A stretch of 64,000 bases of DNA from Bacillota bacterium (GTDB lineage: Bacteria; Bacillota; Ch66; Ch109): contig JABLWZ010000019.1 of NCBI GenBank assembly GCA_013178275.1, forward strand, positions 62,001 through 126,000, read 5' to 3'. How positions within the stretch are numbered: position 1 is the first letter of the stretch; every line of letters starts with the position of its first letter. The notes beneath the pieces were generated by a model. That model saw only the letters and a list, made by a program, of their open reading frames with translations. It was not told where the DNA came from and made no database searches. Below, piece by piece: positions 36,338 to 39,246 of the stretch. The translations under genes and the position numbers were made by a program.

Positions 36338-37366
36338 ATGTCAGATAAACAGAAGGCGCTGGACGCGGCACTGAGTTCCATCGAAAAGCAGTTTGGCAAG
36401 GGATCGATCATGAAGCTGGGAGAGTCCACCAAGTTGAACGTGGAGATAATCCCGACCGGTTCGCTTTCCCTCGATATGGCCCTGGGGGTGGGCGGGGTGC
36501 CCCGGGGAAGGGTGATCGAGATATTCGGCCCGGAGTCCTCGGGGAAAACCACGGTGGCCCTGCACGTGGTTGCCGAAGCGCAGAGGGCCGGCGGGCTGGC
36601 TGCCTTTATCGACGCTGAACACGCCCTCGACCCGATGTATGCCCGTAAGCTGGGGGTGGACATCGAGAATCTCCTGGTTTCCCAGCCCGATACCGGGGAA
36701 CAGGCCCTGGAGATCGCGGAAGCCCTGGTGAGGAGCGGCGCCATCGACGTTGTGGTGATCGACTCGGTCGCCGCACTGGTTCCACGGGCGGAGCTGGAGG
36801 GCGAGATGGGGGATTCCCATGTCGGGCTGCAGGCCCGCCTGATGTCGCAGGCCCTGCGCAAGCTCACCGGCTCCATCTCCAAGTCCAGAACCAGCGCCAT
36901 CTTTATCAACCAGATCAGGGAGAAGGTAGGGGTCATGTTCGGCAACCCGGAGGTGACCCCCGGGGGACGCGCACTCAAGTTTTACGCCTCGGTCCGCCTG
37001 GAGGTCAGGAAGGTGGAGTCGATAAAGCAGGGATCGGATATAGTGGGCAACCGGACCCGGGTCAAGGTGGTCAAGAATAAGGTTGCGCCTCCCTTTCGTC
37101 AGGCGGAGTTTGACATCATGTACGGCGAGGGTATCTCCCGGGAAGGCGGGATCATCGATATCGGGGTAGAACTCGACATTGTCAACAAGAGCGGGACCTG
37201 GTACTCCTACGAGGGCGACCGGCTCGGCCAGGGTAAAGAGAATGCCAAGGATTTCCTTCGGGAGCACCCGGAAACCGCCGCCCGAATCGAAGAAAAGATT
37301 CGACAGTCTATCGGTCACTCCAATGTAACGCTGATAGCCGGCGAGAGCGGTTCCTCCCCCGACTGA
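36338..37366 (+). CDS. recA: recombinase RecA
   Basis: A 342-residue RecA of normal length. Walker A is GPESSGKTT, Walker [11 protein letters not shown], the glutamine switch region [17 protein letters not shown], and the DNA-binding and polymer regions are intact. It catalyses strand exchange and stimulates LexA self-cleavage. The promoter and LexA box just upstream predict SOS induction. ATG 36338 follows TTGAGGAG. The C terminus is only mildly acidic. Confidence 0.98.
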
Positions 37367-37381
37367 TTAACGATTGCAGGC

Positions 37382-37410
37382 TTGACAGAATTTGCAAAAC
37401 GTTCTAAAAT
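37382..37410 (+). promoter_or_regulatory. sigma-A promoter in the recA-rny spacer
   Basis: TTGACA (37382-37387) and TAAAAT (37405-37410) with a 17-base spacer, only 15 bases after the recA stop. Confidence 0.85.
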
Positions 37411-37416
37411 AGCACG

Positions 37417-37670
37417 AGAGAGCGGGGGTTAGAATCCGAAAATCACCGGGTATGGTTTCTTATATATATACATTCCTTATATACGGCTATAAGAAGTTTT
37501 CTATCGGGGTCAGAGACCAGTGAATTGGCGAGTGCCGATAGAATAAGAATGTATGGTGGGGTATAATCATATAAGAACCGGACTAAGGCATAAATATATC
37601 CTTAGGTCGCTACGCAACCCTAGTGAAAGGCTTCTAACACAACCGAGTTCTGGCTCGGTTTTCCTTTTTT
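37417..37670 (+). ncRNA. candidate structured RNA (small RNA or rny leader)
   Basis: A transcript of about 250 bases is bounded by a strong promoter and an intrinsic terminator. It has no ORF and contains several stems: GTTAGAA near the 5' end with TTCTAAC near 37632 (closing stem); TTCTTATA with TATAAGAA (about 37459-37496); CTATCGG with CCGATAG (about 37500-37542); ATACATTC with GAATGTAT (about 37468-37555, alternative); and CTAAGG with CCTTAG (about 37583-37606). No known riboswitch core was recognised. 6S RNA, a novel riboswitch controlling rny, and a trans-acting sRNA are all possible. Confidence 0.55.
37641..37670 (+). terminator. intrinsic terminator of the recA-rny spacer RNA
   Basis: AACCGAG and CTCGGTT form a 7-bp stem with a TTCTGG loop, followed by TTCCTTTTTT. 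It stands 44 bases before the rny ribosome binding site, so it could also act as an attenuator. Confidence 0.88.
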
Positions 37671-37701
37671 CTCGAAACATTCGCCCATCAGGCTGTAGAA
37701 T

Positions 37702-37716
37702 AGGAGGTGAAGGATT
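37702..37716 (+). promoter_or_regulatory. ribosome binding site pointing to an ATT (or ATA) start of rny
   Basis: AGGAGGTGA begins at 37702. An in-frame TGA (37708-37710) lies within it, so translation must begin after that. ATT 37714 is 6 bases after AGGAGG and ATA 37717 is 9 bases after. The next ATG/GTG/TTG is ATG 37801, after the membrane helix. Confidence 0.75.
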
Positions 37717-39246
37717 ATAGACTTTCTTGTTTACGGAATAGTATTTTTAATTGCTATCGCACTTGGATACCTGGGTCGCAAGTTCCTGGCAGAGTCTAAG
37801 ATGAAGTCGGCCGAAGAGGCATCGAAGCGTTTGGTGGAGGAAGCCGAGAAGCAGGCGGAGGCCAAAAAACGCGAAGCCCTCCTGGAGGCTAAAGAAGAGG
37901 CTCACCAGTTAAGGACTGAGGTCGAACGCGAAAACCGCGAGAGACGAAGCGAACTGCAGCGACTGGAACGTCGCCTGCTGCAGAAGGAAGAGTCCCTGGA
38001 TCGAAAGACCGAGGCCATAGAACGCAAGGACGACGCATTACAGAAGCGTGAAACCGAGGTAGAAAAGATCAAGGAAGACCTTTCCCAGTTGCAGCAGAAA
38101 CAGTTGGTCGAGTTGGAGCGGGTATCGGGCCTTTCCTGGGAAGATGCCCGGCAGATGCTTTTGGATAAGGTCGAAAAAGAGATCCGGGTTGAAACCGCGG
38201 TGATGATCAAGGAACTGGAGAGTCAGGCCAAAGAGGAAGCGGATAAGAAGTCCCGTGAAATCGTGACCCTGGCGATTCAGAAGTGTGCTGCCGATGTGGT
38301 CGCGGAAACCACCGTTTCCGTGGTGGCGCTGCCCAACGATGAGATGAAGGGCAGGATAATCGGGCGCGAGGGAAGAAACATCCGTACCCTGGAGACCCTT
38401 ACGGGAATCGACCTGATAATTGACGATACCCCAGAGGCCGTGATACTGTCAGGTTTTGATCCCATCCGGCGCGAGGTGGCGCGGATCGCCCTGGAAAAGC
38501 TGATCCATGACGGCCGGATCCACCCGGCCAGAATCGAGGAGATGGTAGACAAGGCTCAAAAAGAGGTGGATCAGAAGATAAGGGAAGAGGGAGAACAGGC
38601 TGCATTCGATCTTGGTGTGCACAACCTGCATCCCGAACTCCTGAAACTCCTGGGCAGGCTGAAGTTCAGGACCAGTTACGGCCAGAATGTGCTCAAGCAC
38701 TCGGTCGAGGTCGCTCACCTGGCGGCTTCGATGGCGGCTGAACTGGGCGCTGACGTGGTTCTCGCCAAACGGGCCGGTCTGCTGCACGACATCGGGAAGG
38801 CGGTCGACCACGAGGTGAGCGGCCCGCACGTCACCATCGGCGGTGATCTCGCGAAAAAACACCGCGAGGGGCCGGAGGTCATCCATGCGATCATGGCTCA
38901 CCACGGGGACGTCGAGCCTCAGACCATCGAGGCGGTCCTGGTGCAGGCCGCAGATGCAATCTCCGCCGCTCGTCCGGGAGCGCGCCGGGAGACACTGGAG
39001 GCCTACATCAAGCGTCTGGAGAAGCTGGAACAGATCGCAGATTCCTTTGACGGGGTGGAGAAGTCGTACGCTATTCAGGCCGGTCGTGAGATCAGGATCA
39101 TGGTCAAACCGGAGCGCGTGGACGATGCCACTTCTATCCAGGTGGCGCGTGATATAGTAAAACGGATCGAGAGCGAACTCGAATACCCCGGTCAGATCAA
39201 GGTGATGGTGATCAGGGAGACCAGGGCGATAGATTACGCGAAATAG
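37714..39246 (+). CDS. rny: ribonuclease Y
   Basis: A 510-residue membrane endoribonuclease that starts bulk mRNA decay. Read from the AUU start it begins with a membrane anchor ([26 protein letters not shown]), then a long coiled coil rich in Glu, Lys and Arg (residues about 30-190), a KH domain ([30 protein letters not shown]) and an HD domain ([24 protein letters not shown]). The ORF-track start at 37801 would remove the anchor and give an unusually short protein; the 510-residue form has the family's normal length. The gene may be controlled by the structured RNA and terminator just upstream. Confidence 0.94.

Follow-up and report, generated by a model that had tools for sequence, protein, structure and literature searches.

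Leaders that control RNase genes and related regulatory RNAs

RNase Y starts mRNA decay in many Gram-positive bacteria but, as far as we know and could find, how its level is set outside Bacillus subtilis is little described. In B. subtilis, rny has a sigma-A promoter directly upstream and is autoregulated, partly through its 164-nt 5' UTR: RNase Y lowers its own mRNA by cleavage, strongest within the first 100 nt of the ORF and, in the 5' UTR, mainly in the first 50 nt; cleavage in the 5' UTR opens entry sites for RNase J1 (PMC10303841). No terminator or antiterminator has been described there. The rne 5' UTR element of enterobacteria is another structured leader of a decay-initiating endonuclease gene, but it acts through mRNA stability, is not known to contain an intrinsic terminator, and is unrelated in structure and phylum to the leader described here. 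T-box, SAM-I and pyr leaders have the layout of promoter, structured leader, intrinsic terminator and alternative pairing; in the present case the candidate antiterminator strand is the extreme 5' end of the transcript, no known aptamer family is recognized and the gene that would be controlled codes for a nuclease. 6S RNA (RF00013) is also a rod-shaped RNA of about 200–250 nt with a closing stem, and RNA polymerase (RNAP) was found bound to rny mRNA in B. subtilis (PMC11077062); however, the leader described here does not match the 6S model, is tied to rny, and no open bubble or product RNA has been shown for it.

The spacer between recA and rny

We analyzed a stretch of 64,000 nucleotides (hereafter the window) from a Bacillota bacterium (GCA_013178275.1, contig JABLWZ010000019.1, positions 62,001 to 126,000, forward strand). 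A first-pass annotation of the sequence had described a promoter, a stretch without an ORF and an intrinsic terminator in the spacer between recA and rny, with the ends brought together by a closing stem, and this observation is confirmed. The flanking genes code for RecA (TIGR02012) and RNase Y (TIGR03319, 785.9 bits). The promoter matches the consensus at 11 of 12 positions; the region holds four promoter-like sites against 1.0 ± 1.0 in shuffled sequences, the other three scoring 9. Between promoter and terminator there are about 225 nt without a long ORF, and the terminator, AACCGAG-UUCUGG-CUCGGUU, is followed by a U-rich tail. With the probable AUU start of rny the spacer runs from 37367 to 37713. 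The features are collected in Table 1.

Table 1. Features of the recA-rny region, all on the forward strand, in coordinates of the window.
Position	Feature	Sequence or pairing	Basis
36338–37366	recA, upstream neighbor	TIGR02012	profile search
37382–37410	sigma-A type promoter	TTGACA-17-TAAAAT	promoter scan; equivalent promoter upstream of rny in relatives
37417–37427	5' end of the leader RNA (start point about 37416–37418, inferred from the -10); candidate antiterminator strand P0	AGAG 37417–37420 and CGG 37423–37425 with UUCU 37648–37651 and CCG 37643–37645	folds and permutation tests over the family; weak in the window itself
37428–37434	P1 closing stem, 5' strand	GTTAGAA	fold; permutation test
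37443–37450	P2, 5' strand	TCAC-C-GGG, pairs with CCC-TA-GTGA	sequence; centroid fold; cofold, with covarying equivalents in relatives
37457–37465	P3, 5' strand; part of the conserved ACC(A/G)..GGUUU..UAUAUA core near +43	TTCTTATAT	MFE fold; conservation of the core
37468–37475	inner stem, 5' strand, in an insert that the nearest relatives lack	ATACATTC	MFE fold
37499–37543	inner hairpin, in the same insert	TTCTATCGG...CCGATAGAA	fold
37547–37554	inner stem, 3' strand	GAATGTAT	MFE fold
37569–37577	P3, 3' strand	ATATAAGAA	MFE fold; relatives
37582–37607	side hairpin	ACTAAGG...CCTTAGGT	fold
37618–37626	P2, 3' strand	CCC-TA-GTGA	sequence; centroid fold; cofold
37632–37638	P1 closing stem, 3' strand	TTCTAAC	fold; permutation test
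37641–37669	intrinsic terminator with U-rich tail	AACCGAGTTCTGGCTCGGTT; stem core CCGAG/CTCGG (37643–37658)	terminator scan; stem core conserved upstream of rny across the phylum
37702–37709	Shine-Dalgarno of rny	AGGAGGTG	sequence; start-codon scan
37714–39246	rny, RNase Y, probable AUU start codon	TIGR03319	profile search; start-codon scan

Folded alone, the RNA has an MFE of -70.9 kcal/mol (z = -2.26) and 4 of 200 shuffled sequences fold as well, so that single-sequence folding is only suggestive. A search against Rfam 15 at the gathering threshold returned only tRNAs in the window and in 20 loci of relatives. At E ≤ 10 there was no RF00013 hit between 37250 and 37800, and the one hit obtained, drum on the minus strand with 12.9 bits against a cut-off of 43, was rejected as chance. 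In contrast, a true 6S RNA (84.2 bits) is located on another contig of the same genome (G000:C4:147089-147272, G000 being the genome of the window). A distant blastn search against plasmids gave no match.

Conservation and linkage to rny

Lack of conservation in relatives had been named beforehand as one point on which the observation could fail, and conservation was found. A DNA search over 60 relatives detected the 5' end of the element (and in one of them the 3' end) in the two genomes of the same family (G001 and G002), in both cases between recA and rny. The one other genome of the order (G003) has the same layout, including GGGUUUCUUAUAUA and the CCGAGUUUCUACUCGG terminator. Named genomes recovered through their rny gene and further genomes of the phylum extend the pattern of a strong promoter, a leader, and a terminator a short way before rny. 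Counted with simple patterns, on which the figures depend, a CCGAG-type terminator with a nearly fixed stem (CCGAG...CTCGG) was present in 36 of 49 sampled families and 86 of 110 loci, 93% of them with at least 6 T in the next 10 bases; 80 have the exact CCG[A/G]G...CTCGG stem, and the median RNA length to the end of the stem is about 195 nt. Some families end in other terminators, and Negativicutes-type hairpins have short U tracts. In family f49 (loci L194, L200 and L202) the terminator loop is reversed (CCGAGUAGAAACUCGG or similar), as if complementary to the P1 3' strand instead of the 5' end. Minimal leaders, with only about 19–21 nt between the transcription start and the CCGAG terminator, were found at loci L047/L159, L184 and L206.

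The clearest evidence of linkage comes from the 16-base terminator pattern CCGRGTTTCKRCTCGG, which has 32 matches in 259 genomes. Comparison with the coordinates of the rny matches places 31 of them just upstream of rny (two on the opposite strand, i.e., with the loop reversed) and one (G052:C14, a contig of another of these genomes) elsewhere, while the reversed control pattern has 5 hits. The 5' element GAGAAACTAG-N(4-20)-ACYACCA has 8 matches, all upstream of rny, although its reversed control has about as many hits, so that the location rather than the number is informative. Another promoter of 10/12 or better between terminator and rny was found in only 2 of 111 loci.

Predicted structure of the leader RNA

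Plain MAFFT alignments of whole leaders put the P1 strands out of register, so instead of a covariance model or pair counts we used alignment-free permutation tests, in dereplicated sets whose sequences are nevertheless related and not independent. P1 closes the rod. In the window it is GUUAGAA/UUCUAAC, and its equivalents differ in sequence but pair, e.g., AUAGGAUUACUACCA/UGGUAGGUAUUCCUAU (leader L171), UCAGAACAACUACCAU/AUGGUAGAUAGUUCUGA (L123) and AUAGAACUUCUACCACA/UGUGGUGGGGUUUCUAU (L129). Over 59 dereplicated leaders the true 5'/3' partners give -21.7 kcal/mol against -12.9 kcal/mol when partners are permuted (z = -18), indicating strong support by species-specific complementarity. Between the P1 strands, a core ACCA...GGUUU...UAUAUA(GAU) recurs at about +30 to +63; UAUA[GU]A is present at +21 to +75 in 42 of 59 leaders against 5.9 expected from shuffled sequences. 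The window has UUCUUAUAUAUAUA there. Leaders L142, L152, L167 and L171 carry an extra conserved side element (about CCCAACAGGC...UCCUGGUUUUGAACC) before the P1 3' strand.

The first-pass annotation had proposed two alternative folds, on the basis of a competing pair of inner stems. However, the stem ATACATTC/GAATGTAT lies inside TTCTTATAT/ATATAAGAA, i.e., the two are nested and compatible, and both are in the MFE fold. Only the extra copy of TATAAGAA at 37488–37495 could compete. The better-supported alternative is that between the terminator and pairing of the 5' end of the RNA.

Predicted pairing of the 5' end with the terminator

In many leaders the first bases of the transcript (typically GGGAGAAACUAGG) are complementary to the 5' arm and loop of the terminator (CCGAGUUUCU), as would be expected of an antiterminator. 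Over the 59 leaders the 5' 16 nt pair better with their own terminator than with those of others (-8.75 vs. -7.59 kcal/mol, z = -5.4, none of 5000 permutations as low), whereas the reversed 5' end (not significant) and the P1 strand do not. Forbidding the terminator costs on average 3.2 kcal/mol, against 6.6 kcal/mol when the 5' 16 nt are shuffled (lower in 53 of 59; Wilcoxon 2e-10). The best upstream partner of the terminator starts in the first 12 nt in 26 of 59 leaders, where about 6% would be expected; taken over the whole leader, however, this duplex is hardly stronger than in shuffled sequences (-11.4 vs. -10.8 kcal/mol), so that only its position is remarkable. A paired change is seen in one clade, L165 and L193 having 5' CGG with CCG in the terminator and L218 having CAG with CUG. 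Some families with unrelated terminator sequences (f68, f11 and f103) carry other upstream complements, and leaders of this kind include L223, with UUCUGCCCUGGUG/GCCAGGGUAGAGC.

In the window itself the antiterminator is weak and would not prove the case alone. AGAG-CGG pairs with CCG-UUCU around a tandem GA mismatch in the whole-leader fold, and this pairing is predicted 2.9 kcal/mol less favorable than the terminator (P(terminator) 0.99 at equilibrium), so that readthrough would need help. Removal of the 5' 16 nt raises the predicted terminator probability to about 1 in leaders where it was low (L035, 0.10; L145, 0.05; L218, 0.00), while in others it is near 1 in either case. In Desulfotomaculum-type leaders (L041 and L057) the 5' end pairs mainly just before the terminator, and several short leaders show no such pairing. 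A complement at the very 5' end of L173 was discarded because it lies before the likely transcription start. The Paenibacillaceae do not share the design either: their rny leaders (L074, L084, L087, L101, L106, L109 and other loci) have a different 5' hairpin around CUUUUUCCUUCCAAAAAG and an SD-proximal CCAAGG..CCUUGG hairpin, and no 5'-end/terminator pairing was found.

Possible mechanisms

Linkage, terminator, absence of another strong promoter in 109 of 111 loci and 5'-end complementarity make a cis-acting transcription attenuator of rny the best reading, which we hold with moderate confidence. In this view, RNA polymerase starts near 37417, makes a long rod-shaped RNA closed by P1 and reaches the terminator. 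If the hairpin forms, transcription would stop and a leader RNA of about 245–250 nt would be released; if the 5' end of the same RNA pairs with the 5' arm and loop of the terminator (P0, outside P1), the terminator could not form and transcription would continue into rny. Linkage to rny, the conserved terminator, P1 and the above-chance complementarity of 5' end and terminator across the family rest on direct comparison of sequences, whereas it is by inference that the two states compete during transcription, that readthrough varies with conditions and that RNase Y has any effect on the leader. The earlier interpretation was thus partly supported: an attenuator or riboswitch governing RNase Y agrees with the place and anatomy of the element, while a 6S-like small RNA is not supported as membership of that family.

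Our first guess for the signal is the activity of RNase Y itself, by analogy with B. subtilis. Cleavage of the nascent leader, or loss of its 5' end, would remove the antiterminator strand and favor termination, the right direction for negative feedback, and a GA in an AU-rich context, as in AUAUAGAU, fits the reported weak preference of RNase Y (PMC11780869). However, the B. subtilis autoregulation works by mRNA cleavage, mostly within the ORF, and membrane-bound RNase Y may be too slow to act on a nascent leader.

Other explanations appear less likely. P1 and the conserved core (ACCA, GGUUU, UAUAUA[GAU] near +43) could form an aptamer or protein site whose occupancy favors terminator or antiterminator, with a signal other than RNase Y activity; the fixed place of the core inside freely covarying stems and the riboswitch-like layout would fit, but the element is tied strictly to one nuclease gene and to no pathway, interior sizes and side hairpins vary widely, and the minimal leaders L047, L184 and L206 are too short for an aptamer, so that we consider this unlikely. 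Less likely still is a stable small RNA gene acting in trans, for instance as a decoy of RNase Y, with rny expressed by leaky readthrough or from upstream. The complete transcription unit with closed ends is consistent with it, and a terminated leader would accumulate, but in the genomes searched the signature elements were not found away from rny apart from one terminator match, and nearly all loci lack another strong promoter for rny. Equally doubtful is that 5'-end pairing shields the transcript from pyrophosphohydrolase/RNase J entry, the hairpin being mainly a barrier or RNase Y landing site rather than a working terminator. The RNase J1 entry sites opened in the B. subtilis rny 5' UTR (PMC10303841) and the short U tracts of Negativicutes-type hairpins could be taken in its favor, but most hairpins are followed by good U-runs and pairing with the terminator itself is not needed for protection.

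A more speculative and improbable possibility, which the data do not exclude, is that the leader senses the transcription machinery, the rod with its conserved UAUAUA core binding RNAP or sigma-A in a 6S-like way and setting readthrough into rny so that RNA decay capacity follows transcription capacity. This would give a molecular basis for the reported coupling of RNase Y and RNAP in B. subtilis, where RNAP binds rny mRNA (PMC11077062) and rny deletion is suppressed by RNAP mutations (PMC8266666).

Leaders of nuclease genes are already known, and what differs here is the proposed terminator/antiterminator design. Our literature searches brought up no rny attenuator, although they covered only open-licence papers and an earlier description in a subscription journal cannot be excluded. 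A leader RNA that is not in Rfam, present in most sampled families of a phylum and tied to this one gene, would add a transcription-attenuation layer to nuclease control and make feedback between RNA synthesis and decay directly testable with a simple reporter. The terminator pattern also gives an easy marker for finding rny leaders in genomes.

Start codon of rny

In the window, rny has no in-frame ATG, GTG or TTG near its strong Shine-Dalgarno (region 37702–37716). The candidate start is AUU (37714), and the first in-frame ATG, at 37801, is past the N-terminal membrane segment. By a simple scan, 66 of 140 non-Paenibacillaceae loci likewise offer only AUU, so that RNase Y may be an AUU-start gene like infC.
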